From Actinomycetota bacterium (GTDB taxonomy: Bacteria; Actinomycetota; Acidimicrobiia; Acidimicrobiales; JAJPHE01), in the NCBI GenBank assembly GCA_027315345.1, contig DAHUYE010000090.1, positions 176,241-240,240 of the forward strand: 64,000 nt of DNA, given 5' to 3'. The translations under genes and the position numbers were made by a program. Within the stretch, counting starts at the first letter, position 1; each line of letters opens with the position of its first letter. The notes beneath the pieces were generated by a model that searched no databases, was not told where the DNA came from, and was given only the letters and a program-made list of their open reading frames with translations. Of this stretch, positions 27,330 through 58,859 are shown one piece after another.

Positions 27330-27353
27330 TGGCTCGGGGGGGAGGACTCGAAC
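27330..27353. other. attL (displaced 3' end of tRNA-Gln)
   Basis: Identical over 24 nt to 58785-58808, which covers the T-arm, acceptor 3' strand and CCA of tRNA-Gln. Here it is followed by unrelated sequence, so no tRNA can form. This is the copy left on the far side after integration. Confidence 0.85.
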
Positions 27354-33513: not shown

Positions 33514-34029
33514 TCAGGCTTCGCCCCGGGCGGGGTAGTCCTTGTCGTTGACGTAGCGGATGGCCCCGGCCAGCTCATCGAGGTGGGGACGGCCGAAGGG
33601 CATCGTGTTGATCACCCCTGCGTAGAGCGTGCCGTCGGGCCGGATGACGAACAGGCCCGGTTCCCCGAACAACTCGGGCTCGGCCGGGGTGATCCCCTTG
33701 GACACGTAGAGCCCCCATTCCCGCATGGAGGCCACCTCCTGGCCGTAGCCGACCTGGAGACGGCTCAGGCCCCACTCCTCATAGGAGCGGGAGGCGGCCT
33801 CTTCGCTGTCACCGCTGATGGCCACCACCGAGGTGACCCCTACCTCGGCAAGCTGATCGAGCAGGCCCTCCAGCTGCTTGAGGTAGCCGCGACAGATTGG
33901 GCAGTGGAGACCACGGTAGAACACAACCAGGCTGAAGCGATCAGGATGCTGGTCGGCCAGGGACCATCGGCCCCCACCGACCAATGGCACATCCAAGGCG
34001 GGGACAGGCTGTCGGGGAATCGGTGTCAT
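33514..34029 (-). CDS. AhpC/TSA-family peroxiredoxin-like protein
   Basis: 171 residues with a thioredoxin fold: FYRGLHCPICRGYLKQLEGL holds a CxxC (CPIC) where 2-Cys peroxiredoxins have the peroxidatic Cys, and the later FVIRPDGTLYAGVINTMPFG is typical. It likely reduces peroxides or disulfides. It lies 40 nt downstream of the anti-sigma gene on the same strand, suggesting that the ECF factor controls it. Confidence 0.88.
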   Translation of the reverse strand: MTPIPRQPVPALDVPLVGGGRWSLADQHPDRFSLVVFYRGLHCPICRGYLKQLEGLLDQLAEVGVTSVVAISGDSEEAASRSYEEWGLSRLQVGYGQEVASMREWGLYVSKGITPAEPELFGEPGLFVIRPDGTLYAGVINTMPFGRPHLDELAGAIRYVNDKDYPARGEA

Positions 34030-34069: not shown

Positions 34070-34390
34070 TCACTTCCAGACCCGCCTCGGCTTCTTCGCT
34101 CCTGGTGTGCCCTCCGGTGGCAGAGTACGGGTCAGGTTGTTTCCGAAGCCGCGCAGGCGGGCCAGCACCTCGTCGTCGAGCGCCAGTGAGCGGCGGGCCA
34201 GGGCCGACTTGATCTCGGTGTAGGTGGCGGCCTCGAGGCCGCAGCGCCGGCAGGCCTCCAGGTGGGCGGCCACCCGCCGGGCGGTCACCTGGTCGGTGTG
34301 GCCGTCCAGGTAGGACTGCAGCACGCGCATGGTCTGCATGCAACTGGCGGTGTCGCGGCTGCCGAGCAGGCGGCGGGACTTGGTGCTCAT
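34070..34390 (-). CDS. Zinc-binding anti-sigma factor
   Basis: 106 residues with MRVLQSYLDGHTDQVTARRV then HLEACRRCGLEAATY, giving the His-x3-Cys-x2-Cys zinc motif of redox-sensing anti-sigma factors such as RsrA. No membrane segment, so it is soluble. It overlaps the sigma gene (ATGA), the classical arrangement. Release of sigma on disulfide stress is inferred from the family. Confidence 0.88.
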   Translation of the reverse strand: MSTKSRRLLGSRDTASCMQTMRVLQSYLDGHTDQVTARRVAAHLEACRRCGLEAATYTEIKSALARRSLALDDEVLARLRGFGNNLTRTLPPEGTPGAKKPRRVWK

Positions 34391-34980
34391 CCTCTCCTCC
34401 CCGGGGCCAGGCCGGCGGCTACCAGGCGGGCCCGGATGCGCTTGCGGGCCCGGTGCAGCCGGCTCATCACTGTGCCGACCGGCACCCCCATCACTTGAGC
34501 CGCCTCGGCGTAGCTGAGGCCGTTGATGTCCACCAGCTCGACCACGGTCCGGTGGGCATCGGGCAGGGCGGCCAGGGCGTCGGCTACTACCTCGTCGAAG
34601 GCTTCCCCGACCACGATGGCCTCAGGCCCGTCACGGCCGTCAACCGGAGCCAACCGCTCGAGGTCCCGCTGGGGGTCGTCGAGCAACTCGGGACGGCGCC
34701 GGCGGGTCCGGTTTATCTCGGCGTTGCGCATGATGGTGAGAAGCCATGCCCGGGGGTGGGCGCCGTCGAAGCGGTCGATCGACCGGTAAGCCCGCAGCAG
34801 GGTGTCCTGGACCAGGTCCTCGGCATCTGGGGGTCGCCGGGTCAGGGTGGCCGCCACCCGCCAGAGCACCTCGACCTCGGGCAGCACGTAGAGGGCGAAG
34901 GCCGCCTGACGGTCCTCGGGACCCGAATGCGCTGCCGGCTGCACTTTCCGGGAACCCGGCATCACCTCCCACCATTCCAT
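34387..34980 (-). CDS. ECF RNA polymerase sigma factor
   Basis: 197 residues. Region 2 is DAEDLVQDTLLRAYRSIDRF and AWLLTIMRNAEINRTRRRRP. Region 4 is LPDAHRTVVELVDINGLSYA, then EAAQVMGVPVGTVMSRLHRA. It is coupled to a zinc anti-sigma factor and a peroxiredoxin, so it resembles SigR/SigH-type redox response. Targets probably include its own promoter and perhaps the adjacent disulfide oxidoreductase cassette on the other strand. Confidence 0.95.
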   Translation of the reverse strand: MEWWEVMPGSRKVQPAAHSGPEDRQAAFALYVLPEVEVLWRVAATLTRRPPDAEDLVQDTLLRAYRSIDRFDGAHPRAWLLTIMRNAEINRTRRRRPELLDDPQRDLERLAPVDGRDGPEAIVVGEAFDEVVADALAALPDAHRTVVELVDINGLSYAEAAQVMGVPVGTVMSRLHRARKRIRARLVAAGLAPGRRG

Positions 34981-35053: not shown

Positions 35054-35302
35054 GTGCTCGGTCCTGTTTCTCATCGACGGATCCGGCGTTCGATCGGCCC
35101 CTATCTCGACGACGAGCTGGGCCCGGCGGCGCGCGCTGAGATCGCCCGCCACCTGGCGATGTGCTGGGGATGCAACAGCCTGAGCGAGAGCTTCCGCCTG
35201 GTGAAAGCCGCCCTTCGCGCCCGGGCCGAGCGGCAACCGACCAACATGGGGGCGCTCCGTTTGAAGAACCTGGCCCAGAGCCTGGCTCTCCATGGCGATT
35301 GA
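35054..35302 (+). CDS. Small zinc-finger (zf-HC2-like) protein
   Basis: 82 residues: RRSIGPYLDDELGPAARAEI then ARHLAMCWGCNSLSESFRLV contains the His-x3-Cys-x2-Cys anti-sigma zinc motif, and the start is a GTG with no strong ribosome site. It lies divergent from the sigma/anti-sigma pair and just upstream of the FAD oxidoreductase. It may be a second anti-sigma-like sensor or part of the regulatory set. Confidence 0.65.
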   Translation: MLGPVSHRRIRRSIGPYLDDELGPAARAEIARHLAMCWGCNSLSESFRLVKAALRARAERQPTNMGALRLKNLAQSLALHGD

Positions 35303-35390: not shown

Positions 35391-36758
35391 GTGATCTACG
35401 ACCTGATCGTCGTCGGTGGCGGGGCGGGTGGGCTGAGCGCGGCTCGAGCCGGTGTTCGCCGAGGCCGGCGCACCCTGTTGGTCTCCGAGGGCCCTCTTGG
35501 GGGCGACTGCACCTTCACCGGGTGCGTCCCCTCCAAGGCTCTGATCGAGTCCGCCGCCGGCGGCGGCGAGTTCGCCTCGGCCATGGCTCGGGTCAGGGAC
35601 TCCATCACGACCATCTCAGCCACAGAGACCGACGAGGTCCTCGCCGCCGAGGGAATCGAAGTACGCCATGCCCGCACCCGCTTTACCGGCCCGGCGCGCC
35701 TGGAGATCGACCGAACCACGGTCTCAGCCCGCGCCATCGTCATCGCCACCGGCACCCAGGCCGCCATTCCCCCTATCCCGGGGCTGGACGAGCTCGACTA
35801 TCTGACCAACGAGAACGTCTTCCAACTCGAGGTCCGGCCCCGGTCAATGGCCATCCTGGGTGGGGGCCCCATCGGATGCGAGCTGGCCCAGGCTTTCGCC
35901 CGCCTCGGCACCGCCGTCACCCTGATCGAAGCGTTCGACCGGGTGTTGGCCCGGGAGGAGCCGGAGGCGTCGGCGGTGGCCGCTCAGGCTCTGGCCGGTG
36001 CTGGCGTGGCTCTCCGGCTCGGGGTCAAGGCCACCAAGGCAGAACGCGCGGGTGGGGATGGAGGCTTGCGCGTGCAGCTGGACAATGGGGGGTCGGTTCT
36101 GGTCGATCAACTGTTGGTGGCCGTGGGGCGCAGGGCGGTCATCGCAGACCTCGATCCGGCTGCGGGCGGCGTTGACCTGGATGAGCGGGGTTTCGTTCGC
36201 ACCGATGAGCACCTGGCCACCACAGCCAAGGGGGCCTGGGCTGTCGGGGATGTGGCCGGCAAGCTGCAGTTCACCCACGCCGCCGATGAGATGGGGCGCA
36301 TCGCCGTGCACAACGCCTTCTCCCGCCTTCCGGACCGACGCTTCCGGTCGCAGTGGACGCCGTGGGTGACCTTCACCGATCCCGAGGTAGCCCGGGTAGG
36401 CATAAGCGAGGCAGAAGCGGCCCGACGGGGAGCCCGTGTGGCCTACCTGCCCATGGCCGAGGTCGATCGCGCCGTCACCGCCGGGCGGACCGAAGGTTTC
36501 ATCAAGTTGGTGGTGGGGCCCCGGCGTGTCTCGCGTAACTTGGCGGGTGGTCGGCTGCTCGGGGCCACGGTGGTGGCTCCCCGGGCGGGTGAACTCATCG
36601 GGGAGTTGACGCTGGCTTTGCGAGCGGGCATGTTCCCGGCCCGCTTGGCCCTCACCGCTCATCCCTACCCCACCTGGTCGATGGCCATCCAGAAGGTGGC
36701 GGCCCAGCTGTTCATGGACGTCGAGGGTCGCCGCGCCCGCCCGGCCCGGTCAGACTGA
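35391..36758 (+). CDS. FAD-dependent pyridine nucleotide-disulfide oxidoreductase
   Basis: 455 residues. The FAD motif is IVVGGGAGGLSAARAGVRRG, the redox disulfide is Cys40/Cys45 (GGDCTFTGCVPSKALI), the NAD(P) motif is MAILGGGPIGCELAQAFARL, and the C-terminal interface reads HPYPTWSMAIQ. The usual HxxxxE base has Ser in place of Glu. It lacks the C-terminal Cys-Cys of MerA, so it is not mercuric reductase despite similarity. It may reduce the glutaredoxin or thioredoxin-like partners that follow. GTG start at 35391, with GGAG 10 nt upstream. Confidence 0.88.
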   Translation: MIYDLIVVGGGAGGLSAARAGVRRGRRTLLVSEGPLGGDCTFTGCVPSKALIESAAGGGEFASAMARVRDSITTISATETDEVLAAEGIEVRHARTRFTGPARLEIDRTTVSARAIVIATGTQAAIPPIPGLDELDYLTNENVFQLEVRPRSMAILGGGPIGCELAQAFARLGTAVTLIEAFDRVLAREEPEASAVAAQALAGAGVALRLGVKATKAERAGGDGGLRVQLDNGGSVLVDQLLVAVGRRAVIADLDPAAGGVDLDERGFVRTDEHLATTAKGAWAVGDVAGKLQFTHAADEMGRIAVHNAFSRLPDRRFRSQWTPWVTFTDPEVARVGISEAEAARRGARVAYLPMAEVDRAVTAGRTEGFIKLVVGPRRVSRNLAGGRLLGATVVAPRAGELIGELTLALRAGMFPARLALTAHPYPTWSMAIQKVAAQLFMDVEGRRARPARSD

Positions 36759-36854
36759 GGGCCGATCAGACCCAGGACCGACGGTGGCCGGCCCGTCACC
36801 AGGGGACCCCTCCGGCTGGGACGGGAAAATGAGAGGGAAGTCTGGGACCGTCAA

Positions 36855-37184
36855 GTGGGTTTCCGACCCGTGGACTCATTCAGTGCACCAGGCGCCGTTA
36901 CCGTCTATGTGCGCCCGGGCTGCCCGTACTGCGTCTCGCTCCGCCGCCGCCTCCGGCGGTCTGGAGTGCACTTCGACGAGGTCGACATCTGGCAAGACCT
37001 CGAGGCAGCCGCGTTTGTACGCTCGGTGGCAGGCGGGAACGAGACGGTCCCGACGGTGGTCGTGGGTGACCACGCCCTGGTCAACCCGGCGGCCCGTCAG
37101 GTGCTCCAGCTGGCCGGCGGAGCCGGCGAGGGGGAGATGCGGCGGCGCTGGATGGGGAGATGGCTTCAGCGCCAAGTTCGATGA
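36855..37184 (+). CDS. Glutaredoxin-like protein
   Basis: 109 residues with the active site Cys23-Pro-Tyr-Cys26 in AVTVYVRPGCPYCVSLRRRL and the cis-Pro segment NETVPTVVVGDHALVNP. Mycoredoxin-like length plus a C-terminal basic tail (RRRWMGRWLQRQVR). It probably passes electrons from low-molecular thiols or from the upstream FAD enzyme to cassette proteins. Its stop overlaps the next ATG. Confidence 0.88.
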   Translation: MGFRPVDSFSAPGAVTVYVRPGCPYCVSLRRRLRRSGVHFDEVDIWQDLEAAAFVRSVAGGNETVPTVVVGDHALVNPAARQVLQLAGGAGEGEMRRRWMGRWLQRQVR

Positions 37185-37621
37185 GAATGGGACAGATAGC
37201 CGGGGTGGTGGGACAGGGCCTGGCCGCAGGACTGGTCGGCATGGCCGCCATGACTGTGTCGGGCACGCTGGAGGCCAAGGTCCGCCACCGCCAGGCCAGT
37301 ACCGCCGCGGCCAAGGTGTTGGGGGGCAAGCCTGCGAGCGAGCGCTCCGAGCGCCGTTTCAACAACCTGGTGCACTGGGGCTACCGGACGGGCTGGGGGG
37401 CGGCAAGGGGTCTGTTGGGTGCAGCGGGACTCGCCCGTGTCCCGGCTACGGTGGCCCACCTGGGCGCGGTGTGGGGCGGCGAGCAGGTGGTCCTTCCGGC
37501 CAGGGGAGCTTCGCCGCCGGCCTGGCGTTGGGAGAAGGCCGAGGTAGGCATCGACTTGTCTCACCACGTCGTGTACGTGTCGGCTACCGGATTGGCCCTG
37601 TCTTGGCTGGAACGGCCTTGA
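37181..37621 (+). CDS. Small membrane protein of the selenodomain cassette
   Basis: 146 residues with Gly/Ala-rich hydrophobic segments (GVVGQGLAAGLVGMAAMTVS; YRTGWGAARGLLGAAGLARV) and a C-terminal HHVVYVSATGLALSWLERP helix. It resembles DUF1440/YagU-like proteins. The ATG at 37181 makes the ATGA overlap seen throughout this operon, so it is preferred to the ATG at 37160. Its stop overlaps the TTG of the radical SAM gene. Function unknown. Confidence 0.7.
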   Translation: MRMGQIAGVVGQGLAAGLVGMAAMTVSGTLEAKVRHRQASTAAAKVLGGKPASERSERRFNNLVHWGYRTGWGAARGLLGAAGLARVPATVAHLGAVWGGEQVVLPARGASPPAWRWEKAEVGIDLSHHVVYVSATGLALSWLERP

Positions 37622-39036
37622 AGGCACTCGGGTCCTGGCTGCGTCGGCTGGAACGGGCCACCCGGCCGGTCGATCCCGAGTTCGTAGAAGCCATGGCCCG
37701 CCGTTGGGACGAGCTGCCCGAGCACGTGAAGGTGCCGGGCCAGGTGCTCGGGCGCCACGCCGTGGGCTGTGAAGGCACCCACGGCGTGTTCCCCCGGTGC
37801 AACTTCACCTGCACCCCCTGCTACCACTCGGCCGCGGCCAACGCCGTGCGGGTCGACGGGGTCCACACCGTGACCCAGGTGGAGGCCCAGATGGCCTTCC
37901 TACGCTCACGTCGGGGTCCGGCGGCCCACGCCCAGCTCATCGGCGGGGAGGTGAGCCTGCTCGAGCCGGAGGACCATGCTGCGGCCCTGTCGATCATGCG
38001 CCGCTACGGCCGGGAGCCCATGAGCTTCACCCATGGTGATATCGACTACGACTACCTGACCACGCTGGCCCTGGACGCCTCGGGCCGCCCCCGCTTCCGG
38101 CGGCTGTCCTTCGCCGGCCACTTCGACACCACCATGTTCGGCCGCCGCGGCATCCGCCGGCCGGAGAGTGAGGCCGACCTGGAGCCCTACCGTCGCCGCT
38201 TCGCCGCCCTGTTCGCCCGCCTGCGGGCCGAGCACGGGGTGAGCTACTTCCTGGCTCACAACATGACCGTTACCCCTTCCAACCTGGGTTCGGTAGCCGA
38301 GGTCGTCCGCCAGGGGGCGGACATGGGTTATTCCATGTTCTCCTTCCAGCCGGCGGCTTTCGTGGGTAACCAGAAGCGCTGGAAGGAGGACTACCGGGAC
38401 ACCTCGGGGGACCAGGTATGGGCCGAGATCGAGGCCGGGGTGGGCTGTGAGCTGGACTACACCGTCTTCCAGCATGGGGACCTGCGCTGCAACCGGGTGG
38501 CCTACGGCTTCTATGTGGGCCCGAAGTGGTTCCCGGTGCTGAGCTCGACCCCGGCGGACCTGGCCACCCGGGACGCCTTCTACCGCTCCTTTGGGGGGAT
38601 GCTGTTCAACAACACCCCTCCCGCCGTGGTGGCCGCGCGCATCGCCCGGGCGGTGGCCCGCCGTCCGGTGGTGGTCCCCATGGCCCTGGCCTGGTTGATC
38701 CGCACGGCCCGTCGGGTCGGATGGGCCCACCTGGCCCGGCACCGCCGGATCCGCCCCGTCAGCTTCGTCATGCACTCCTTCATGGACGCCGCCGATGTGG
38801 CTCCCGCCTGGGAGCTCATGACCCGGGGTATCCAGAGCGACGATCCCCAGATCCAGGCCACCCAGGAGCGCCTGGCTTCGTGCCACTACGCCATGGCCCA
38901 TCCCGAGAGCGCGACGCTGGTGCCCGCCTGCGTGCAGCACAGCGTCTTGGACCCCGACGAGAACCGCCAGCTGGCCGAGCTGCTCCCGCTCAAGCTGGGC
39001 CCGACCCGCCGGCGGGCAGCCGGGACGGTGGGCTGA
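37618..39036 (+). CDS. Radical SAM enzyme
   Basis: 472 residues from a TTG that overlaps the preceding stop. The [4Fe-4S] motif Cys61-x3-Cys65-x2-Cys68 lies in FPRCNFTCTPCYHSAAAN. A GGE-like SAM contact follows in AQLIGGEVSLLEP. The C-terminal ~200 residues contain several Cys (VGCELDYTV, DLRCNRVAYG, LASCHYAMAH) that could hold auxiliary clusters. It is not ArsS or a known SPASM family that I recognise. It makes a 5'-deoxyadenosyl radical; the target is unknown. The downstream phosphorylase could recycle its 5'-deoxyadenosine or MTA. Confidence 0.9.
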   Translation: MKALGSWLRRLERATRPVDPEFVEAMARRWDELPEHVKVPGQVLGRHAVGCEGTHGVFPRCNFTCTPCYHSAAANAVRVDGVHTVTQVEAQMAFLRSRRGPAAHAQLIGGEVSLLEPEDHAAALSIMRRYGREPMSFTHGDIDYDYLTTLALDASGRPRFRRLSFAGHFDTTMFGRRGIRRPESEADLEPYRRRFAALFARLRAEHGVSYFLAHNMTVTPSNLGSVAEVVRQGADMGYSMFSFQPAAFVGNQKRWKEDYRDTSGDQVWAEIEAGVGCELDYTVFQHGDLRCNRVAYGFYVGPKWFPVLSSTPADLATRDAFYRSFGGMLFNNTPPAVVAARIARAVARRPVVVPMALAWLIRTARRVGWAHLARHRRIRPVSFVMHSFMDAADVAPAWELMTRGIQSDDPQIQATQERLASCHYAMAHPESATLVPACVQHSVLDPDENRQLAELLPLKLGPTRRRAAGTVG

Positions 39037-39038
39037 GG

Positions 39039-39584
39039 GTGCCCCGTCGGGAGCAGGTCGCCACTTCCCTGGCCGGCGTGGCCCTGGTCGAAGCCCGCAG
39101 CGGCGCCAGCGTCGAGCTCGCCTCGCTGCTCGGCGTGCAGGTGCTGAGCGCCATCCGGCACCGGTACTGACTGCCGTGTCAGGAGCACCTGGTTCAGGTG
39201 CAGGAGAAACTGGCCGGTCTGGACGTGGGCCGGGTGGCCGTCGGCTTCAGTCCGCCCGACGCCCTGGCCGCCCTGGCCGAGCACATCTCCTGGTCGGGGC
39301 TCATGCTTTCCGACGTCGACCGCCGGCTCTACGCCGCCCTGGGCCTGGGCCGGGCGCCGCTCTGGCGGGTCTACTCGGCGGGCACCCTGATGCGCTACGC
39401 CAAGGCCGTGGCCCGGGGCCATCGCCTGACGCGCCCGGTCGAGGACACCCAGCAGCTGGGTGGGGACGCCGTGGCCGTCGACGGGATGGTCGTCTGCCGG
39501 TGGCGCCCGCGCAGTCCCGACGACCGGGTGGATCCCGACGAGCTGGCCGAGGTCGCCTCCGACTACGCCCGGGGCCGGAGCTGA
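39039..39584 (+). CDS. Putative selenoprotein: thioredoxin-fold AhpC-TSA_2-like protein with UGA-encoded Sec
   Basis: The frame runs from GTG 39039 to the stop at 39584 and is broken only by TGA at 39168-39170. Read as Sec it gives 181 residues with Sec44-Leu-Pro-Cys47. The upstream part (ALVEARSGASVELASLLGVQ then VLSAIRHRY) and downstream part (LPCQEHLVQVQEKLAGLDVG, IGF-like VAVGFSPPDALAALAEH, then LSDVDRRLYAALGLGRAPLW) form one continuous peroxiredoxin-like domain, in which relatives carry RHxxCxPCxEHLxQL. Sec replaces the first Cys. A perfect 7-bp hairpin starts 14 nt after the TGA. Standard callers would report only a headless ORF from 39198. Selenocysteine is inferred; a nonsense mutation is the alternative. 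Confidence 0.8.
39185..39201 (+). promoter_or_regulatory. SECIS-like hairpin after the in-frame TGA
   Basis: GCACCTG and CAGGTGC form a perfect 7-bp stem closed by GTT. The loop begins 21 nt after the TGA and starts with G. Bacterial SECIS elements place an apical loop about 16-37 nt after UGA with a G at the first or second loop position, so this fits. Confidence 0.7.
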
Positions 39585-39588
39585 ACCC

Positions 39589-39654
39589 ATGGACGCCCGC
39601 AAGGTGGAGGTGAACACGGTGGAGGCGAACAGTGTGCAGGTGAAGAGGTCGTGA
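39589..39654 (+). CDS. 21-codon coupling ORF
   Basis: A 21-residue frame (MDARKVEVNTVEANSVQVKR plus Ser) begins 5 nt after the selenoprotein stop, and its TGA overlaps the GTG of the phosphorylase gene. It shows an internal V-x-V-N / V-E-A-N repeat. It may be a translational coupling peptide rather than a functional protein. Confidence 0.4.
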   Translation: MDARKVEVNTVEANSVQVKRS

Positions 39655-40439
39655 AGGTCGGGATCATCTCCGGATCGGGCACCGACGCCTGGCCCGGCGC
39701 GCCCGAGGCCGGGCGGACCCGGGTGGAAACCCCCCACGGTCCGGTGGAACTCACCCGGGGCCGTCTGGGCGGGGCCGAGCTGGTCCACATCTCCCGTCAC
39801 GGCACCGGCCATCACCACCTTTCCAACCACGTCCCCCACCGGGCCCACCTGCGGGCGCTGCTGGACGAGGGGGTGGACTGCCTGTTCTCCCTGACCGTCT
39901 GCGGTGCGGTCGACCCCAAGGCGACACCGGGCACCCTCGTCGTCTTCGACGACCTCTACTTCCCCTCCAACCGTCTGCCCGACGGCAGCGTGTGCACCTG
40001 GTACCAGGAGCCAGGAGAGCCGGGCCGGGGCCACTGGATCTTCGACCGGCCCTTCTCCGAGACTCTGCGCCAGGTCCTGATAGGAGGAGCCGAGGCGGCC
40101 GGTCTGGCAGTCCTGTCACGGGGCTGCTACGGACACGTGGACGGGCCCCGGTTCAACAGTCGGGCGGAGATCGCCGCGCTGGGCGGGGCCGGGGTGACGG
40201 CGGTGAGCCAGACGGCCGGGCCCGAGGTCGTCCTGGCCGGAGAGGCCGGGCTGCCCATGGCTCTGCTGGGCTTCGTCACCGACTATGCCAACGGGGTCGC
40301 CCTCGAGCCCGAGTCGGTGGATCAGCTGCTGGCCCGGGTGGAGGCCAGCACGGCCGTCTTCGCTGCCGCCGTGGAGGGCGCGGCGGGGATCATGACCACT
40401 GCGGAGGCCCCCGGCTTCGTCCACCGGTTCGGCCCGTGA
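39651..40439 (+). CDS. MTA/purine nucleoside phosphorylase family enzyme
   Basis: 262 residues of the MTAP/PNP fold: VGIISGSGTDAWPGAP, the HISRHGTGHHHLSNHVPHRA phosphate/ribose region, FSLTVCGAVDPKATPGTLVV and the C-terminal GLPMALLGFVTDYANGVAL with the base-contacting Asp. It phosphorolyses methylthioadenosine or 5'-deoxyadenosine-type nucleosides to a sugar-1-phosphate. In this operon it could recycle the radical-SAM by-product or cleave an adenosyl-conjugate intermediate to leave a modified sugar. Overlaps both neighbours by 4 nt. Confidence 0.88.
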   Translation: MKVGIISGSGTDAWPGAPEAGRTRVETPHGPVELTRGRLGGAELVHISRHGTGHHHLSNHVPHRAHLRALLDEGVDCLFSLTVCGAVDPKATPGTLVVFDDLYFPSNRLPDGSVCTWYQEPGEPGRGHWIFDRPFSETLRQVLIGGAEAAGLAVLSRGCYGHVDGPRFNSRAEIAALGGAGVTAVSQTAGPEVVLAGEAGLPMALLGFVTDYANGVALEPESVDQLLARVEASTAVFAAAVEGAAGIMTTAEAPGFVHRFGP

Positions 40440-41092
40440 AGGACCCCGCCGTGCTGGTCATGGCCAAGACCCCCCGACCCGGCTCGGTCAAGACCCGCCT
40501 GGGCCCGCTCCTGGGCCCGGAGGGCTGTGCCCGTCTGGCCGCCGCCCTCCTGCGCCACACCCTGGCCCTGGCCCGGGAGGTGGCGGCGGGACGGACCTAC
40601 CTGGCCTTCGACCCTCCCGGTTCGGACCCCGAGCTGGACGGCCTCGTCTGTGCCGACGTGGAGATCTTCGCCCAGGAGGGCACCGATCTGGGCCGGCGGC
40701 TGGAGGTGGCCACCACCCGGGTCCTGGGCGCCCACCATGGTCCGGTGATCGCGCTCGGCACCGACGCACCCACCCTCACCGCCGAGATCCTCCAGGAGGG
40801 TGCCGATTCGCTCCGCTCGGGAGCCGACGTGGTCTTCGGCCCCGCTCTGGACGGCGGCTACTACGCCGTGGGCCTGGCCCGGCCCCTGCCCCCGGTGTTC
40901 GACCTGGACAGGTCCCTGTGGGGAGGTCCCGACGTCCTGGCCGCCAGCCTGGCCCGGGCCCGCTCGGCCGGGGCGCGCGTCGGGATGCTGCCTTCGCTGC
41001 GGGACCTGGACACCCCCCTCGACGCCCTGGCCCTGCTGGAAGATCCCCGTCTGCCAGCCGAGATAGCCGACTGCCTGGCCGGGCGCCCATGA
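40436..41092 (+). CDS. TIGR04282-type transferase (rSAM/selenodomain-associated transferase 1)
   Basis: 218 residues with a nucleotidyl/glycosyl-transferase-A fold like CofC/MobA: VLVMAKTPRPGSVKTRLGPL (nucleotide-binding, KTRL), VIALGTDAPTLTAEIL, and the signature DVVFGPALDGGYYAVGLARP. The family was named for its linkage to radical SAM and selenodomain proteins, and is also found in arsenosugar clusters. GTGA overlaps the phosphorylase gene. It probably activates or transfers a sugar-type group. Confidence 0.88.
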   Translation: MKDPAVLVMAKTPRPGSVKTRLGPLLGPEGCARLAAALLRHTLALAREVAAGRTYLAFDPPGSDPELDGLVCADVEIFAQEGTDLGRRLEVATTRVLGAHHGPVIALGTDAPTLTAEILQEGADSLRSGADVVFGPALDGGYYAVGLARPLPPVFDLDRSLWGGPDVLAASLARARSAGARVGMLPSLRDLDTPLDALALLEDPRLPAEIADCLAGRP

Positions 41093-41859
41093 CCGAGAAC
41101 GGCCAGGCCCGGGTCTCTATCGTCGTCCCGGTGCTGAACGAGGCCGCCATCATCGAGTCCTGCCTGAAGCGTCTCGGCTCGGACTTTCCCGACTGCGAGT
41201 TGATCGTGTCCGACGGCGGCAGCACGGATGCCACCCGCGCTCTGGCCTCCCGCTTGGCCACCGTGGTGGACGCTCCGCCCGGGCGGGCCCGCCAGATGAA
41301 CGCCGGCGCCGCCCGGGCCGGCGGCGACGTGGTGTGGTTCATCCACGCCGACACCGTCATAGAGTCCTCGGCCCTGGAGATGGTCCGCTCCGCCCTGGCC
41401 GATCCGGCGGTGGTGGCCGGGGGCCTGCGTATCCGCTTCGACCGCCGCTCCTTGGGCCTGGACTACCTGGCCTGGTCGTCCAACCTGCGGGCCCGGCGCC
41501 TGCACTGGATCTTCGGTGACCAGGCCATGTTCGTCCGCCGGTCGGTCTTCACCGAGCTCGGCGGCTTTCCCGACCTGGCCATCCTGGAGGATCTGGAGAT
41601 GTCCCGTCGCCTCCACCGGAAGGGGCGCCTGACCATGATCCCGGCCTCGTCCACGGCCTCGTCGCGACGCTTCGTGGACCACGGCACCTGGCGGATGATC
41701 GTGTTCATGCAGTACCTCAAGGCGCTGTACTTCGCCGGGGTCGATCCCGCCGCCATCGCCGAGCGCTACGCCCGGGGCCCTCGTCTGGTTCCCGGCCCCC
41801 GCCGGGTCCGCCGGGCCGCCCTCGCCTCGTCACCGACCAGAGAAGAGATGACCAATTGA
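41089..41859 (+). CDS. TIGR04283-type glycosyltransferase 2 (rSAM/selenodomain-associated transferase 2)
   Basis: 256 residues of GT2: VSIVVPVLNEAAIIESCLKR, IVSDGGSTDATRA, the family marker GRARQMNAGAARAGGDVVWF with the HADT metal-binding site, and FGDQAMFVRRSVFTELGGFP followed by LEDLEMSRRLHRKGRL. The combination with the TIGR04282-type gene is the diagnostic pair of the rSAM/selenodomain system. ATGA overlap with transferase 1. Donor and acceptor are unknown. Confidence 0.9.
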   Translation: MTENGQARVSIVVPVLNEAAIIESCLKRLGSDFPDCELIVSDGGSTDATRALASRLATVVDAPPGRARQMNAGAARAGGDVVWFIHADTVIESSALEMVRSALADPAVVAGGLRIRFDRRSLGLDYLAWSSNLRARRLHWIFGDQAMFVRRSVFTELGGFPDLAILEDLEMSRRLHRKGRLTMIPASSTASSRRFVDHGTWRMIVFMQYLKALYFAGVDPAAIAERYARGPRLVPGPRRVRRAALASSPTREEMTN

Positions 41860-43262
41860 CCACCCCGCCCCTTGTCGATGACGTGCCCGGTCGTCTCGAC
41901 CGCCTGGCCTGGAGCCGGCTGCACACCACGATCCTGGTCGCCCTGGGAGCGGGATGGCTCTTCGACTCCTTCGAGGTGCAGATGTTCTCCTCGGCGGTGG
42001 GTCCGTTGGGGGACCATTTCCGGGCCTCGGTCACCGCCCGGGACGCCGTGCTGGCCATCTGGCTGGTCGGCATCCTGGTCGGAGCCCTGGTGGGCGGACC
42101 GCTGGCCGACCGCTTCGGCCGGCGGCGTCTGTTCGTGGTGACCCTGATCTGGTACGCCGGCTTCACCGTGCTTACCGGGCTGGCCCCCGACCTGGGGGCG
42201 GTCTACGGGCTGCGGTTCCTGGCCGCGCTGGGAGTGGGGGCCGAGTACCCCATCGTCAACGCCGCCATCTCCGAGTTCATGCCGGCCCGGGTCCGGGGTC
42301 GGGCCAACGCCGTGGTCATGAACTACTGGCCGGCCGGAGCCGTGGTGGCGGGCTTGCTGGCCTACGTGGTACTCGACACCCTCGCCCTGTCCTCGGCCAC
42401 CTCCTGGCGGTACATGTTCGTCCTCGGAGGCCTGGCGGCCCTGATCGTGCTGTACTTCCGCCGCCGCATCCCCGAGTCCCCCCGCTGGCTCGTCTCCCAG
42501 GGCCGGATCCAGGAGGCAGAGAGCATCGTCTCGCGCCTCGAGGGCCGTTCCGGCCCGGCCGGCGCCGCCTACCCGGCCGGTGCCGAGACCCCCTCGTTCG
42601 GGACCGCCCTGGCCGAGCTGGTCCGGTTCTACCCCGGCCGCCTGGCCCTGGGGGCGGCACTCGACCTGGCCGAGGCGTTCGGCTACTACGGCATCTTCGC
42701 CCTTCTGTCCGTGGTGGTCCTACCGCAGGTCCACATCTCCCAGGCCCACATCCCCCTGTTCTTCATAGTGGGCAACCTCGGGGCCCTGGCCGGGGGGCTG
42801 GCCATGAGCAACTTCCTCGACCAGGCCGGCCGGCGCCTCACCGTGGGCTGCGTCTACGCCGCCGCCGCCGGAGGCGTCGGGCTCCTGGCTGCCGCCACCT
42901 CCACCGGCAGCGCCGCCTGGGTGACGGCGGCCTTCGTCGTTTCCAACGCCGCCGCCACCGCCGCCTGGACCTCGGCCTACCCCACCTTCACCGAGCTGTT
43001 CCCGACCCATCTCCGTGGCGCAGGGGTCGGGTTCTCGGTGGCGGTGGGACGGGTCGGGGCCATCTTCGGGACCCTGGCCCTTCCCTCCATCGCCACTCGA
43101 CTCGGAGCCGGGGCCTCCTATGCCCTGGTGGCCGCCTTCTGGCTTGTGGGCCTGGCCGCGATCGGGATCTACTCGCTCAGCGGCGGCATCGATGCGGCCC
43201 GTCTGCCTCTGGAGCGCCTGACGATCAAGCCCATGTCCCGGCGCGCCGCGCCGGCTCGCTGA
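41856..43262 (+). CDS. MFS sugar/metabolite transporter
   Basis: 468 residues, about twelve helices, with the sugar-porter/aromatic-acid-type motifs GGPLADRFGRRRLFVVTLIW and FRRRIPESPRWLVSQGRIQE. The TTG start overlaps the glycosyltransferase stop. As the transporter of the cassette it may export the product or import a precursor. The PESPRWL motif links it to the metabolite:H+ symporter group. Confidence 0.88.
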   Translation: MTTPPLVDDVPGRLDRLAWSRLHTTILVALGAGWLFDSFEVQMFSSAVGPLGDHFRASVTARDAVLAIWLVGILVGALVGGPLADRFGRRRLFVVTLIWYAGFTVLTGLAPDLGAVYGLRFLAALGVGAEYPIVNAAISEFMPARVRGRANAVVMNYWPAGAVVAGLLAYVVLDTLALSSATSWRYMFVLGGLAALIVLYFRRRIPESPRWLVSQGRIQEAESIVSRLEGRSGPAGAAYPAGAETPSFGTALAELVRFYPGRLALGAALDLAEAFGYYGIFALLSVVVLPQVHISQAHIPLFFIVGNLGALAGGLAMSNFLDQAGRRLTVGCVYAAAAGGVGLLAAATSTGSAAWVTAAFVVSNAAATAAWTSAYPTFTELFPTHLRGAGVGFSVAVGRVGAIFGTLALPSIATRLGAGASYALVAAFWLVGLAAIGIYSLSGGIDAARLPLERLTIKPMSRRAAPAR

Positions 43263-43271
43263 GGTCCTGGC

Positions 43272-44960
43272 ATGAGCCGCATCGCCGTCTGCGGAGGACC
43301 CTACGGGAATCCCTACGCCCTGGCCGCCTTCGTAGCCGACGCCCGATCCCGGGGCGCCCAGCGCCTGGTCTGCCTCGGGGACCTCGGAGGCTTCGGCGCC
43401 GAGGTCAACGCCCTGTGGCCGATCCTGTGCGAATCCGGCGTGGAATGCGTGGCGGGCAACTACGACGTCGCCATCGCCCGGGGCGATCCCGACTGCGGCT
43501 GCGGCTATCGCGATCCGGCCGACAACTACTTCGCCCAGCTCATCTACGACCACACCCTGGCCCACACGGACCGGGACTTCGCCACCTGGATGGGCCAGCT
43601 TTCCACCGAAAGGCGGGAGCGCATCGACGGCGTGGACGTCCACCTCGTCCATGGCTCACCCCTGGCCCTCAACGACTTCTGGTGGGAGTCCCTACCCGAG
43701 GCCGAGCACCGGGTGCGGGTAGAGGCCAGCGGCGCCGACCTCATCCTCTGCACCCATAGCGGCCTGCCCTGGCAGCGCCGGGTGGACTCGACCCTGGTCG
43801 TCAACGTCGGGGTACTGGGCAAGCCGGCCAACGACGGGCGGAGGAACGTCTGGTACACCATGGTGGATCTCGACCAGGGCCGGGCGGAGGCCGAGCTGAT
43901 CCCCCTCGACTACGACTGGGCCGCCCAGGCCGCCTCCATGCGCTCGGCCGGGTTGCCCGAGGCCTTCACCGAGACCATCGAGACGGGGTGGTGGACGACC
44001 TGCATCGAGGTGCTCCCGCCCGCCGAGCGGGCCGCCGGGCGGTACCAACTCTACCGCAGCTCGCTGCCGAAGGGATTCCGGCCGGCGGCGGGCTCCTGGA
44101 GCCCGGAGGATCCCGACGCCGCGGCCATGGACGACCGCCCGGTGGTGTCCCTGTTCGGGACCCTCTACTTCCCGGCCCGGCTGTGGATCTACTCGAACTT
44201 CCACTGCAACCTGTCCTGTGACTACTGCGCGGTGGCATCCTCACCTCGGGCTCCTCGTCGCCAGCTGAGCCCGGAGAGATTTCGGTCCCTCATCGACGAG
44301 GCCGTGGCCGAGGAGTTCGCCGAGATCTATGTGACCGGCGGTGAGCCGTTCCTGCACCCCGGCATCACCGACATGCTCCACTACTGCGCCCAGCGCCTTC
44401 CCACCGTCGTGCTCACCAACGCCATGCTCTTCGGCCCCCGCCGAGCCCCGGACCTAACCCGTCTGGCCGAGACTGGCCGGCTGGTGATCCAGACGTCCCT
44501 CGACGGCGCTCGGCCCGCCACCCACGACCTGCACCGGGGGCCGGGATCCTGGGAGCGAACCGTGGCCGGCATCCGCCAGGCGGTTGCGGCTGGCTTGGTC
44601 TGCCGGGTGGCGATGACCGAGACAGCTGAGAACACCGAGGACGTGCCGGCTATGGGATCACTGATGAGGGACCTCGGAGTTCCCCCGGAGAACTTCGCCG
44701 TCCGGCCCCTGCTGCACCGGGGCGCCTCCGACGCCGGCTTGGACATCGATGACGGCACCACCGTCCCTGAGCTGACCGTGACCGCCGACGGCCTGCACTG
44801 GCATCCCGCCGGGGCCGACGCCGCCACCAGCCCGGACATGGTGGTGGCCACCGACGGCCAGGTCCCACTGGCGGTCGGCAAGCGGATCGTGATCGAGAGG
44901 TTCTTCGCCGCCCGGCTGGCCGATGGCTCCCTTCCCCAGCCGTTCCGCTGCGCTATCTGA
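43272..44960 (+). CDS. Metallophosphoesterase-radical SAM fusion protein
   Basis: 562 residues. Residues 1-~230 are a calcineurin-like phosphoesterase: CGGPYGNPYALAAFV, LVCLGDLGGFG, VAGNYDVAI, VHLVHGSP and CTHSGLPW give the metal ligands, although the first motif lacks the canonical DxH. From ~300 comes a radical SAM domain with Cys312-x3-Cys316-x2-Cys319 (FHCNLSCDYCAVASSP), YVTGGEPFLHPGIT and TSLDGARPATHDLHRG. The fusion couples a phosphate-removing step to radical chemistry. It is the last gene of the cassette, 9 nt after the MFS gene. Substrate unknown. Confidence 0.88.
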   Translation: MSRIAVCGGPYGNPYALAAFVADARSRGAQRLVCLGDLGGFGAEVNALWPILCESGVECVAGNYDVAIARGDPDCGCGYRDPADNYFAQLIYDHTLAHTDRDFATWMGQLSTERRERIDGVDVHLVHGSPLALNDFWWESLPEAEHRVRVEASGADLILCTHSGLPWQRRVDSTLVVNVGVLGKPANDGRRNVWYTMVDLDQGRAEAELIPLDYDWAAQAASMRSAGLPEAFTETIETGWWTTCIEVLPPAERAAGRYQLYRSSLPKGFRPAAGSWSPEDPDAAAMDDRPVVSLFGTLYFPARLWIYSNFHCNLSCDYCAVASSPRAPRRQLSPERFRSLIDEAVAEEFAEIYVTGGEPFLHPGITDMLHYCAQRLPTVVLTNAMLFGPRRAPDLTRLAETGRLVIQTSLDGARPATHDLHRGPGSWERTVAGIRQAVAAGLVCRVAMTETAENTEDVPAMGSLMRDLGVPPENFAVRPLLHRGASDAGLDIDDGTTVPELTVTADGLHWHPAGADAATSPDMVVATDGQVPLAVGKRIVIERFFAARLADGSLPQPFRCAI

Positions 44961-45351: not shown

Positions 45352-46857
45352 TCATACCGCGCAGCAGGAAAGGCGGGACACGTCACGGGTGAAGGTTTGT
45401 GCAGTCAGCTTCAGCCCTTCGGCCATGGTGAGATAAGGCGACCAGGTTTGGGCCAACTGGTTGACCGTCATGTCGTTCTTGATGGCATAGACCACGGCTG
45501 CGATCACGTCACCGGCGTTGTCGGCCAGAATGTGGGCGCCGAGCAAGCGGCGGCCTCCAGCCTCGGCCACGAGCTTGAACAGCCCCCGGGTGTCGCGGTT
45601 GACCAGAGCGCGGGGCAAGGCGCCGAGTCCCAACACTCTCGACTCGACCGCAAGCCCCGCATCGTGGGCCTCCTGCTCGGTCATACCGGCCGAGGCGATC
45701 TGCGGCGATGTGAAGGTCACCCGGGGCATGGCCTTCCAGTCCATCGTTCTGCCCAACTTGGCGATGGCGTTGTCGGCGGCGATGGCGCCCTGGGCGGCGG
45801 CCACGTAGACGAACTGAGGGGCACCGGTGACATCACCCGCCGCCCAGATGCGCGCATTGGTGGTTCCCTGGAAGTCGTCGACCCGTATGGCACCCCTGTC
45901 GTCCAGGTCCACGCCAACCCGATCGAGTCCCAAGCCCGCCGTGTTGGGACGGCGTCCGGTGGCGACGAGTACCTGGTCACACTCAACGCGCTGCTCCTCC
46001 CCCGCCACGGCAAAGACCACCGTGCGACGCGGACCGGTGCGCTCCACCCGGCTGACGCGGACACCGGTGTGGACCTCGGCCCCCTCGTCGCGCAGCAGCT
46101 CCGCCATCGCGGCGGAGATCTCTGGTTCCTCGAACGGCGCCACCCGGTCGAGCGCTTCGAGGAAGGTGACCCGGCTGCCGAGATGGGAGAACAGCTGACC
46201 GATCTCCAGGCCGATGGCGCTGGCGCCGATGACGACGAGGGAGCCGGGCATCTCCTTGAGCTCCAAGGCGGTGGTGCTGGTCAGATAGCCGGCCTCTGGC
46301 AAGCCGGGGATGGACGGCGCGGTGGGCGCCGCGCCGGTGGCGACCAGGTACTGCTCGGCGTGCATCTCGCCGCCTCCGCAGCGGAAGCCGTCACCGTCGG
46401 AGAATTCCCCCCGGCCGCACAGCAGCGCGAAGCCGTACTCCTCGGCCAGATGCTCGTACTTGTCGTAGCGCATGGTGTCGACCAGCTCGTCCTTGGCCGC
46501 CACCATGGTGGCGAGGTCGACCGGTCCGGCCTGGGTGGCGACCCCGGGGAAGGGACCGTGGCCGGCCCGGTGGCGCAGGTCGGCCGCGGCCAGCATGGCC
46601 TTGGACGGCACGCAACCCACGTTCACGCAGGTGCCCCCGACGGTGCCGGCCTCGCAGAGAGCCACGCTGGCCCCGAGGTCCTTGGCCCGGATGGCGGCGG
46701 CGAAAGCGGCGCTACCGGAGCCCACGACGATCAGGTCGTACTCGGCCACCGGGGCCGGTCCCCGCCGGTGCTCCGGTCCCCGCCCGGGCTGACCGGCAGG
46801 CCGGTGCGGGGCGTCCCGAGAAGCCGTCTCCTCCTCGTTGCGCATCGGCGTAGTCAT
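45352..46857 (-). CDS. merA: Mercuric reductase
   Basis: 501 residues. FAD motif IVVGSGSAAFAAAIRAKDLG, redox disulfide in VGGTCVNVGCVPSKAMLAAA, NAD(P) motif VIGASAIGLEIGQLFSHLGS and the C-terminal mercury-binding Cys498-Cys499 (RLSCCAV). The N-terminal HMA domain is absent and replaced by a 38-residue charged extension, as in actinobacterial MerA. It reduces Hg(II) to Hg(0) using NADPH. Its start overlaps the ArsR-type regulator stop by 4 nt. Confidence 0.95.
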   Translation of the reverse strand: MTTPMRNEEETASRDAPHRPAGQPGRGPEHRRGPAPVAEYDLIVVGSGSAAFAAAIRAKDLGASVALCEAGTVGGTCVNVGCVPSKAMLAAADLRHRAGHGPFPGVATQAGPVDLATMVAAKDELVDTMRYDKYEHLAEEYGFALLCGRGEFSDGDGFRCGGGEMHAEQYLVATGAAPTAPSIPGLPEAGYLTSTTALELKEMPGSLVVIGASAIGLEIGQLFSHLGSRVTFLEALDRVAPFEEPEISAAMAELLRDEGAEVHTGVRVSRVERTGPRRTVVFAVAGEEQRVECDQVLVATGRRPNTAGLGLDRVGVDLDDRGAIRVDDFQGTTNARIWAAGDVTGAPQFVYVAAAQGAIAADNAIAKLGRTMDWKAMPRVTFTSPQIASAGMTEQEAHDAGLAVESRVLGLGALPRALVNRDTRGLFKLVAEAGGRRLLGAHILADNAGDVIAAVVYAIKNDMTVNQLAQTWSPYLTMAEGLKLTAQTFTRDVSRLSCCAV

Positions 46858-57478: not shown

Positions 57479-58675
57479 ATGGCCCGCAGCCCTACCGTCG
57501 CCCCCCGCAAGGCTGCCAACGGGACCTGGTTCTTCAATGTCGACATCGGCGTCGGACCCGATGGCCGGCGCCGGCGGGCCCACCGCCGTGGGTTCCCGAC
57601 CAGGAAGGCAGCCCAGGAGGAGCTCGACCGGCTCCGCCACTCTGTCACCACGGCCGCATACGTCACCCCGACGCGCCAGACCCTCGCCGAGTACCTGACC
57701 GACGACTGGCTGCCAGCCGTACGGCACAACCTGGCCCGCTCGACCTGGGAGAGCTACGACCGCAACATCCGCAATCACGTGGTACCGGCCCTCGGTCGCC
57801 TACAGCTCCAGCAGGTGGACGGAGCGGTTCTCAACCGCTTCTACGCGACGCTCCTCGAGTCCGGTCGCATGAGAGGCAAGCAGTCACCAGGCCTCAAACC
57901 CCGCACGGTCAGATACATCCATACGATCGTCCACTCGGCCTTCGGCGACGCCGTCCGCTGGCGCCGCCTGGTCATCAACCCGGCGGCGCAGGCCACTCCT
58001 CCCTCGGCGGCCCTGGCGAGGGCGCCCGAGATGCGAGTCTGGACTGGACCGCAAGTCCATCGGTTCCTGGAGCTCTGCGAGGGAGACCGGTACCGGTGGC
58101 CGTGGCTCTTCCTGGCCACGACCGGCTGCCGACGCGGCGAGGCTCTCGGTCTGCGGTGGTCAGATGTCGATTTCGACCGCTCGCTCGCAAGCATCCGCCA
58201 AGAGGTCATCCCCTTGACCAAGGCGACCGGCATTGGGCGGGAAGGCGTCATCGTCCAGCGCACCAAGACGGGCAAGCCGCGTGTGATCGAACTCGATACC
58301 CCGACGGTATCGGCACTGCGAGCGTGGAAGGCACGTCAAGCTGAGGAGCGCCTCGCCCTGGGAGCGGGTTACCAGGACGTCGATCTCGTCTTCCCGCGAG
58401 CTGACGGCCGTCCCTACCATCCGGAGGCCTTCTCCAAGACCTTCGACCGCCGACTGCGTCAGGCGAGCTTCGCCGAACTGCCCGCGATCCGTGTCCACGA
58501 CTTGAGACATACCTGGGCGACCCTGGCGCTCATCGCCGGTGTCGACGTGAAGGTGGTGTCGGAGCGACTCGGTCACTCCTCACCCATGGTGACCTGGCAG
58601 ACCTACCAACACGTGGTCAAGGGCATGCAGTCCGACCCGGCGGAGAAGGTCGCGGCGCTGATCTTCGGCGCTTAG
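57479..58675 (+). CDS. int: Tyrosine recombinase (island integrase)
   Basis: 398 residues, intact. An N-terminal arm-binding region (ANGTWFFNVDIGVGPDGRRR), a SAM-like core-binding domain (YLTDDWLPAVRHNLARSTWE) and a catalytic domain with Arg219 (TGCRRGEALGL), His340/Arg343 (VHDLRHTWATL), His366 (LGHSSPMVTW) and Tyr376. It reads toward tRNA-Gln, 110 bp downstream, whose 3' end is the attachment site. Paired TTTGGAACCA boxes between gene and tRNA are candidate arm sites. Confidence 0.96.
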   Translation: MARSPTVAPRKAANGTWFFNVDIGVGPDGRRRRAHRRGFPTRKAAQEELDRLRHSVTTAAYVTPTRQTLAEYLTDDWLPAVRHNLARSTWESYDRNIRNHVVPALGRLQLQQVDGAVLNRFYATLLESGRMRGKQSPGLKPRTVRYIHTIVHSAFGDAVRWRRLVINPAAQATPPSAALARAPEMRVWTGPQVHRFLELCEGDRYRWPWLFLATTGCRRGEALGLRWSDVDFDRSLASIRQEVIPLTKATGIGREGVIVQRTKTGKPRVIELDTPTVSALRAWKARQAEERLALGAGYQDVDLVFPRADGRPYHPEAFSKTFDRRLRQASFAELPAIRVHDLRHTWATLALIAGVDVKVVSERLGHSSPMVTWQTYQHVVKGMQSDPAEKVAALIFGA

Positions 58676-58784: not shown

Positions 58785-58808
58785 TGGCTCGGGGGGGAGG
58801 ACTCGAAC
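58785..58808. other. attR (within tRNA-Gln 3' end)
   Basis: 24 nt identical to 27330-27353. It covers the CCA end, acceptor 3' strand and T-arm of tRNA-Gln, so integration preserves the tRNA. The crossover lies somewhere within it. Confidence 0.85.
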
Positions 58809-58859
58809 CCCCAATGGCAGGGCCAGAACCTGCTGTGTTGCCGATTACACCACCCCCGA
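58785..58859 (-). tRNA. tRNA-Gln (anticodon CUG)
   Basis: 75 nt including an encoded CCA. Acceptor TCGGGGG pairs with CCCCCGA, the anticodon stem is GCAGG/CCTGC with loop TTCTGGC (anticodon CTG reads CAG), and the T-stem is GGGGG/CCTCC. Its 3' end doubles as the island attachment site. Confidence 0.95.

Follow-up and report, generated by a model that had tools for sequence, protein, structure and literature searches.

A mobile actinobacterial gene cluster resembling an arsenosugar-type cassette, with a different radical SAM enzyme in the probable place of ArsS

The stretch of DNA analysed here (the window) comprises 64,000 nucleotides of contig DAHUYE010000090.1 from an actinobacterial genome of the order Acidimicrobiales (assembly of 3.84 Mb, 97.7% complete), and contains a cluster of ten genes in which two radical S-adenosylmethionine (SAM) enzymes and a predicted selenoprotein accompany a phosphorylase and two transferases. 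All ten genes were confirmed on one strand (+) between positions 35391 and 44960, as the initial annotation had placed them, with the family content that it had predicted. The genes, together with a hairpin within the selenoprotein gene, are as follows.

35391..36758, + strand: flavin adenine dinucleotide (FAD)/NAD(P)H disulfide reductase of the MerA/lipoamide-dehydrogenase superfamily, with redox motif CTFTGC and no C-terminal CC
36855..37184, + strand: mycoredoxin/glutaredoxin (CPYC), 91.9 bits against TIGR02200
37160..37621, + strand: small membrane-type protein of 153 residues, without a match in family searches; a 51% identical homologue lies near a core cluster that is free of rSAM1 (L130/L131)
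37618..39036, + strand: rSAM1, a radical SAM enzyme (CNFTCTPC) of an unnamed family, with a tetraether-synthase-like fold in its AlphaFold2 (AF2) model
39039..39584, + strand: predicted selenoprotein, a SelL-related/AhpC-TSA_2 redox protein, with a selenocysteine (Sec) codon TGA at 39168-39170 (UxxC)
39185..39201, + strand: hairpin resembling a selenocysteine insertion sequence (SECIS), with GU in the loop, at positions 18-34 from the T of the TGA
39651..40439, + strand: MTAP-like phosphorylase of a distinct subfamily common to ArsS loci, as judged from alignment and tree
40436..41092, + strand: TIGR04282 protein (DUF2064, CofC-like nucleotidyltransferase fold), 164.4 bits, above the curated cut-off of 134
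41089..41859, + strand: TIGR04283 family-2 glycosyltransferase, 229 bits, above the curated cut-off of 182
41856..43262, + strand: major facilitator superfamily (MFS) transporter, which adjoins the core genes also in L045, L050, L075, L130, and L131
43272..44960, + strand: MPE-rSAM, in which an Ap4A-hydrolase/SapH-like metallophosphoesterase is joined in one protein to a radical SAM domain of the Rv1681 type (CNLSCDYC)

Overlaps of 4 nucleotides, which the initial annotation had claimed for most junctions, occur at only four of the nine (37618/37621, 40436/40439, 41089/41092, and 41856/41859); a fifth overlap measures 25 nucleotides (37160/37184), and the remaining junctions are gaps of 96, 2, 66, and 9 nucleotides. 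As read from the sequence, the spacing of the ten genes is still operon-like.

Homologues of rSAM1 with 54-76% identity were found in 56 actinobacterial loci in a scan of GTDB contigs, and gene content was compared across 32 rSAM1 loci with flanks of 7 kb or more to either side (full-flank loci), the window's own locus being one of them. Homologues of the 37618 and 43272 genes, a pair whose failure to co-occur had been named earlier as a refutation of the proposal, do co-occur, MPE-rSAM being present in 22 of these 32 loci. All 22 also encode TIGR04283 and the FAD reductase, and many encode the phosphorylase (19/22), TIGR04282 (17/22), a further methyltransferase (16/22), and ArsM (15/22). The ten full-flank loci without MPE-rSAM represent another module, characterized by a CDP-alcohol phosphatidyltransferase (8/10) and a YnjB-type binding protein (5/10). 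Within this second module, L060, L063, L064, L069, and L070 carry a set like ynjBCD/ynjF of E. coli, consisting of a YnjB-type substrate-binding protein (SBP), ABC permeases, and the CDP-alcohol phosphatidyltransferase, often with a VTT protein. Across 296 genomes of the phylum, with p-values that ignore relatedness, rSAM1 is rare and patchy (9/296); it occurs together with the selenoprotein in six genomes (p = 4e-7), full-length MPE-rSAM occurs in five, three of which also have rSAM1 (p = 2e-4), and MPE-rSAM is associated with the phosphorylase subfamily (p = 3e-6). The association of the cluster genes is not chance, and the proposal that the ten genes form one unit is supported by their conservation together over many loci. 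Two distant genomes (G084 and G115) have the gene order MFS, MPE-rSAM, TIGR04282, TIGR04283, FAD enzyme, FADred, phosphorylase, VTT, with a homologue of the 153-residue protein nearby and no rSAM1. Because these genomes keep the other genes without rSAM1, the core, judged by gene content, is made up of MPE-rSAM, TIGR04282, TIGR04283, the phosphorylase, the MFS transporter, and the FAD reductase, and MPE-rSAM rather than rSAM1 is therefore the radical enzyme that goes with the sugar genes. These two genomes have the sugar genes and no rSAM1, the ten loci described above have rSAM1 and no sugar genes, and the two are therefore separable modules; rSAM1 would be an added, separable radical step.

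The likeness to arsenosugar-type clusters that the initial annotation had pointed out proves to be specific. NCBI names TIGR04282 and TIGR04283 as families for arsenosugar biosynthesis (glycosyltransferases), and both are shared with ArsM-ArsS clusters (TIGR04167 with TIGR04282/TIGR04283), as is the phosphorylase subfamily. ArsS (TIGR04167) exceeds its curated cut-off in 8 of 396 genomes, and nine ArsS loci were read, of which five (L155-L158 and L162), all actinobacterial, have the order TIGR04283-ArsS-phosphorylase, with a phosphorylase 41-45% identical to that of the window. The window and ArsS-linked phosphorylases have in common, with small variations, a signature that is absent from ordinary MTAP (LYFPxNRLPxG in an extended loop, GPRFNSR, SQTxGPE, and DYANGV), and in a maximum-likelihood tree the window-type, ArsS-linked, and related phosphorylases form one subfamily (support 100/99) far from canonical MTAPs, of which two, both on long branches, served as comparison. 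Further points of likeness are the ArsM gene next door in Streptomyces relatives, where it retains the conserved cysteines, and a nearby VTT gene in ArsS locus L155 and in the relatives L130/L131. An ordinary MTAP was ruled out for the window phosphorylase by the tree and by its score against TIGR01694 (S-methyl-5'-thioadenosine phosphorylase), which at 134.7 bits is below the cut-off of 274.85. Aligned to human MTAP, it keeps R60, H61, T93, T197, and D220, and has N, Q, and A for S178, M196, and D222 (all of which we take to be contacts in the human enzyme); these three changes are subfamily-specific. Sister clusters that combine an MTAP-like phosphorylase with TIGR04282 were seen at L203:7923-15261 and in L200, L202, L207, and L208, and L203 also has a methyltransferase, a SPASM-type radical SAM gene, a glycosyltransferase, a DoxX-like protein, a FadE-type dehydrogenase, and an Rv1680-family protein.

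Unlike ArsM-ArsS clusters, the window cluster has the phosphoesterase-fused Rv1681-type radical SAM enzyme instead of ArsS, adds a Tes-like radical SAM enzyme and a selenoprotein, and belongs to a genome without ArsM. The absence of ArsM and ArsS, noted earlier for the cluster, extends to the whole 97.7%-complete genome, in which the best ArsM match is 48.2 bits (cut-off 263) and the best ArsS match is 49.4 bits (cut-off 300), with MPE-rSAM itself at 43.9 bits. The earlier description of the cluster as a radical SAM-selenodomain cassette needs correction in that TIGR04167 itself is missing, and a classical ArsS/ArsM pathway in this organism is ruled out, since the genome has neither gene. ArsM is also absent from G097 and G115, and G035, an ArsS genome reported to be 100% complete, has no ArsM at E 1e-20. 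In a further genome (G292; L159, L160, and L161) ArsS occurs three times; one of these genes contains an in-frame TGA, and one copy lies beside two ArsM-like genes.

The predicted model of MPE-rSAM matches SapH/asymmetric Ap4A hydrolase in its phosphoesterase half (Z 25); its predicted template modelling score (pTM) of 0.56 makes the domain placement unreliable. The radical domain is closest to the Rv1681 family NF049973, at 270.9 bits over the C-terminal part only, below the cut-off of 380. Some loci related to the Rv1680/Rv1681 type (NF049985, NF049973) likewise carry TIGR04282 and a family-2 glycosyltransferase, whereas Rv1681-type proteins have no phosphoesterase domain and are encoded at loci that also contain genes for an Rv1680 SBP-like protein and for a FadE-type dehydrogenase, neither of which was found in the window cluster. 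An Rv1681-type radical SAM gene stands beside an apparent Rv1680-type protein and a FadE-type dehydrogenase at L142:3204-8610 and L129:9697-12637, and L142 additionally has TIGR04282-like and family-2 glycosyltransferase-like genes. In-frame TGAs were considered in stand-alone phosphoesterase homologues and rejected, as none lies within the homologous stretch in the alignments examined. Among the papers available to the literature search, none dealt with Rv1681 in connection with radical SAM, with the TrsS system, or with the present cluster.

The AF2 model of rSAM1 (predicted local distance difference test, pLDDT, of 80) matches GDGT-MAS (7tom) with Z 22.0 over 332 residues, and the next family is viperin (Z 14.5). 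At the sequence level there is weak likeness around CX3CX2C to both Tes and TrsS, with scores far below the cut-offs (16.3 bits versus 450 for Tes, NF045702; 15.4 bits versus 490 for TrsS, NF045646). The N-terminal rubredoxin motif of tetraether synthase, CX2C-X20-CX2H (PMC9433317), is absent from rSAM1, which has no cysteine before C51; the same paper mentions bacterial homologues whose function is unknown. Because of the tetraether-synthase fold, the model suggests an aliphatic or lipid substrate for rSAM1.

The putative selenoprotein of the initial annotation is, on sequence evidence, a true one, given the conserved in-frame TGA, the SECIS-like hairpin, and a complete Sec machinery. Its reading frame (39039-39584) runs through the TGA at 39168-39170 (RHRY-U-LPCQEH), and the TGA occupies this position in every homologue found, followed in most of them by LPCQ or LIC. 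The hairpin, at +18 to +34 after the TGA, has a six-pair stem and, in most members, GU in the loop; one or two pairs are broken in 5 of 24 members. Covariation is seen in L120 and L123, where CAC...GTG becomes CAT...ATG (C-G to T-A) at the cost of an amino-acid replacement, and a compensatory G-C to C-G change occurs at the base of the stem. Genes for tRNA-Sec, SelA, SelB, and SelD are together on contig C80 of the genome. This protein would add an actinobacterial selenoprotein branch that tracks with rSAM1 and that standard gene calling would cut at the TGA.

The mycoredoxin exceeds its family cut-off (89.5 bits). An electron path from the FAD enzyme through glutaredoxin to the selenoprotein, as proposed initially, is ruled out as a fixed unit by poor joint conservation: of the 32 full-flank loci, 29 have the FAD reductase, only 7 the selenoprotein, and only 4 the glutaredoxin. 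The conserved mobile unit and the specific arsenosugar likeness are thus the parts of the earlier interpretation that stand, and the fixed electron path is the part that does not. The FAD enzyme (35391) was also considered as a mercuric reductase and rejected: it has the fold and redox pair of MerA, but scores 332.6 bits against TIGR02053 (cut-off 454.45) and lacks the C-terminal vicinal cysteines, ending in RRARPARSD. The neighbouring gene at 45352-46857 does encode a genuine MerA, with a score of 566 bits and the CC end.

Given that ArsS loci of the same phylum carry TIGR04283 and a phosphorylase of the window's subfamily, the window cluster has the appearance of an arsenosugar-type cassette with an Rv1681-type radical SAM enzyme standing in for ArsS. 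An arsenosugar-type pathway with its adenosylating radical enzyme replaced by another radical SAM enzyme is the most economical explanation, one that is drawn by analogy and preferred tentatively, with somewhat less than even confidence. The adenosylation of arsenic by ArsS is established (cited in PMC12159101), and by analogy the radical domain of MPE-rSAM would cleave SAM and join the 5'-deoxyadenosyl radical to a small acceptor (X, for which a trivalent arsenical is the likeliest candidate), yielding 5'-X-5'-deoxyadenosine. The MTAP-like phosphorylase would then strip adenine to give 5-X-5-deoxyribose-1-phosphate, which, going by the families, TIGR04282 would activate to a nucleotide sugar and TIGR04283 would transfer to an acceptor. 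The phosphoesterase half might hydrolyse a phosphate or nucleotide ester that arises along the pathway, the MFS transporter would export the product, and the FAD reductase, mycoredoxin, and selenoprotein could hold X and thiols reduced; in the weakest part of the scheme, rSAM1 would carry out a second, separate radical step. The product is probably a sugar conjugate and possibly an arsenic conjugate, arsenic being favored by the ArsM genes of relatives (15/22 loci) and by the ArsS-linked phosphorylases. The general logic resembles that of HpnH-HpnG (adenosylhopane to ribosylhopane), in which radical adenosylation is followed by removal of adenine, whereas the phosphorylase and radical SAM families are different ones (HpnG 19.8 bits and HpnH 48.8 bits, far below the cut-offs).

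Several observations weigh against this explanation. Arsenic is disfavored by the lack of ArsM in the window genome and by the Rv1680-family protein of the sister clusters, which is also similar to a putative selenate-binding protein (TIGR04553, 77.5 bits). By score, ArsS (43.9 bits) is no better a match to the radical domain of MPE-rSAM than MoaA (52 bits) or the mycofactocin maturase (65.5 bits) is, and the C-terminal cysteine/Sec motif of ArsS is absent from MPE-rSAM. Solo copies of the phosphorylase subfamily exist (L197:9188-9973 and L198:9438-10112), with no radical SAM gene seen near them, which rules out a strict tie between the subfamily and radical SAM genes; the presence of the phosphorylase alone is therefore no proof of the pathway, and the subfamily may instead act on 5'-deoxyadenosine or S-methyl-5'-thioadenosine, the solo copies possibly serving 5'-deoxyadenosine recycling. 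The separation of the subfamily from canonical MTAPs, moreover, is drawn against the two long-branched sequences mentioned above.

The same points bear on a rival in which the chemistry is identical and X is not arsenic, with 5'-deoxyadenosyl joined to selenium, sulfur, phosphorus, or carbon to give a non-arsenic ribosyl conjugate; the carbon case has a counterpart in HpnH, which we take to join 5'-deoxyadenosyl to hopene. The window genome, G097, and G115 without ArsM, the selenate-binding likeness in sister clusters, and the generic HpnH match of the MPE-rSAM radical domain are consistent with such a product, which is nevertheless considered unlikely, if by no means negligible, given that 15 of the 22 loci have ArsM next to the cluster and that ArsS loci have the same phosphorylase subfamily. 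A glycolipid pathway, with rSAM1 acting on a lipid chain that the transferases glycosylate, and with the phosphorylase confined to the recycling of 5'-deoxyadenosine from both radical enzymes, would suit the GDGT-MAS/Tes fold of rSAM1 (Z 22), the CDP-alcohol phosphatidyltransferase in 8 of the 10 rSAM1 loci without MPE-rSAM, and the solo phosphorylases; it is quite unlikely in view of the sugar genes that occur without rSAM1 in G084 and G115, the ten loci with the reverse arrangement, and the phosphorylase that adjoins ArsS in five loci. Other genes of the island on which the cluster lies, namely ArsR next to an ArsP_1/YHS permease, MerA next to another ArsR, and ChrB, are what might be expected of a redox operon for stress or for resistance to metals (mercury, chromate, arsenic) with the radical SAM and sugar genes as passengers, but those supposed passengers are conserved together and the ArsP-type permease is found only in the window among the 32 loci (MerA and ChrB were not separately tested), leaving this reading very unlikely. 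That one of the radical SAM enzymes matures a peptide, as for a ribosomally synthesized and post-translationally modified peptide, is barely plausible, since the structural nearness of the MPE-rSAM radical domain to SkfB and SuiB (Z 20-22) is set against conserved partners that are sugar-nucleotide enzymes, and no precursor gene was noticed, small open reading frames not having been searched systematically.

The preferred explanation, the replacement of ArsS by MPE-rSAM, can be extended to a joint reading in which the cluster is a second, independent actinobacterial solution to ArsS chemistry. The Rv1681-type radical SAM domain and the dinucleotide-type phosphoesterase would make a 5'-deoxyadenosyl conjugate, the shared phosphorylase and transferases would turn it into a glycosylated product, the tetraether-synthase-like enzyme would attach it to a lipid or mature it there, and orphan Rv1680-Rv1681-type loci would belong to the same pathway class. 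Taken as a whole this combination is rather unlikely. Should the preferred explanation hold, adenosylation in arsenosugar-type pathways would have evolved more than once, organoarsenic or related metabolism would extend to many Streptomyces, MPE-rSAM and the Tes-like rSAM1 would stand as two uncharacterised but testable families of radical SAM enzymes, and Rv1681-type radical SAM proteins would gain a first functional lead.

The cluster is held by a tRNA-integrated island of ~31.5 kb (27330-58808) with 24-nucleotide direct repeats, and the mobility suggested earlier is supported by the integrase beside the tRNA gene and by the exact repeat at 27330. An ECF (extracytoplasmic function) sigma/anti-sigma pair that is divergent from the cluster is conserved in relatives, and from this arrangement the sigma factor is the probable regulator of the cluster. 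The features concerned are the following.

27330..27353: putative left attachment site, where 24 nucleotides exactly repeat the end of the tRNA gene at 58788-58859
58785..58808: putative right attachment site, at that end of the tRNA gene
57479..58675, + strand: tyrosine integrase of the island, adjoining the tRNA gene
34070..34390, - strand: zinc-finger (zf-HC2) anti-sigma-type protein (PF13490), of a family found in 16 loci including the window
34387..34980, - strand: ECF sigma factor, divergent from the cluster, with a homologue in 16 of the 32 full-flank rSAM1 loci
35054..35302, + strand: second short zf-HC2 open reading frame, just upstream of the cluster

Beside the ECF sigma genes, at 33514-34029, lies a Cys-form AhpC/TSA protein (CPIC) that is weakly like the SelL-related family (36.4 bits).

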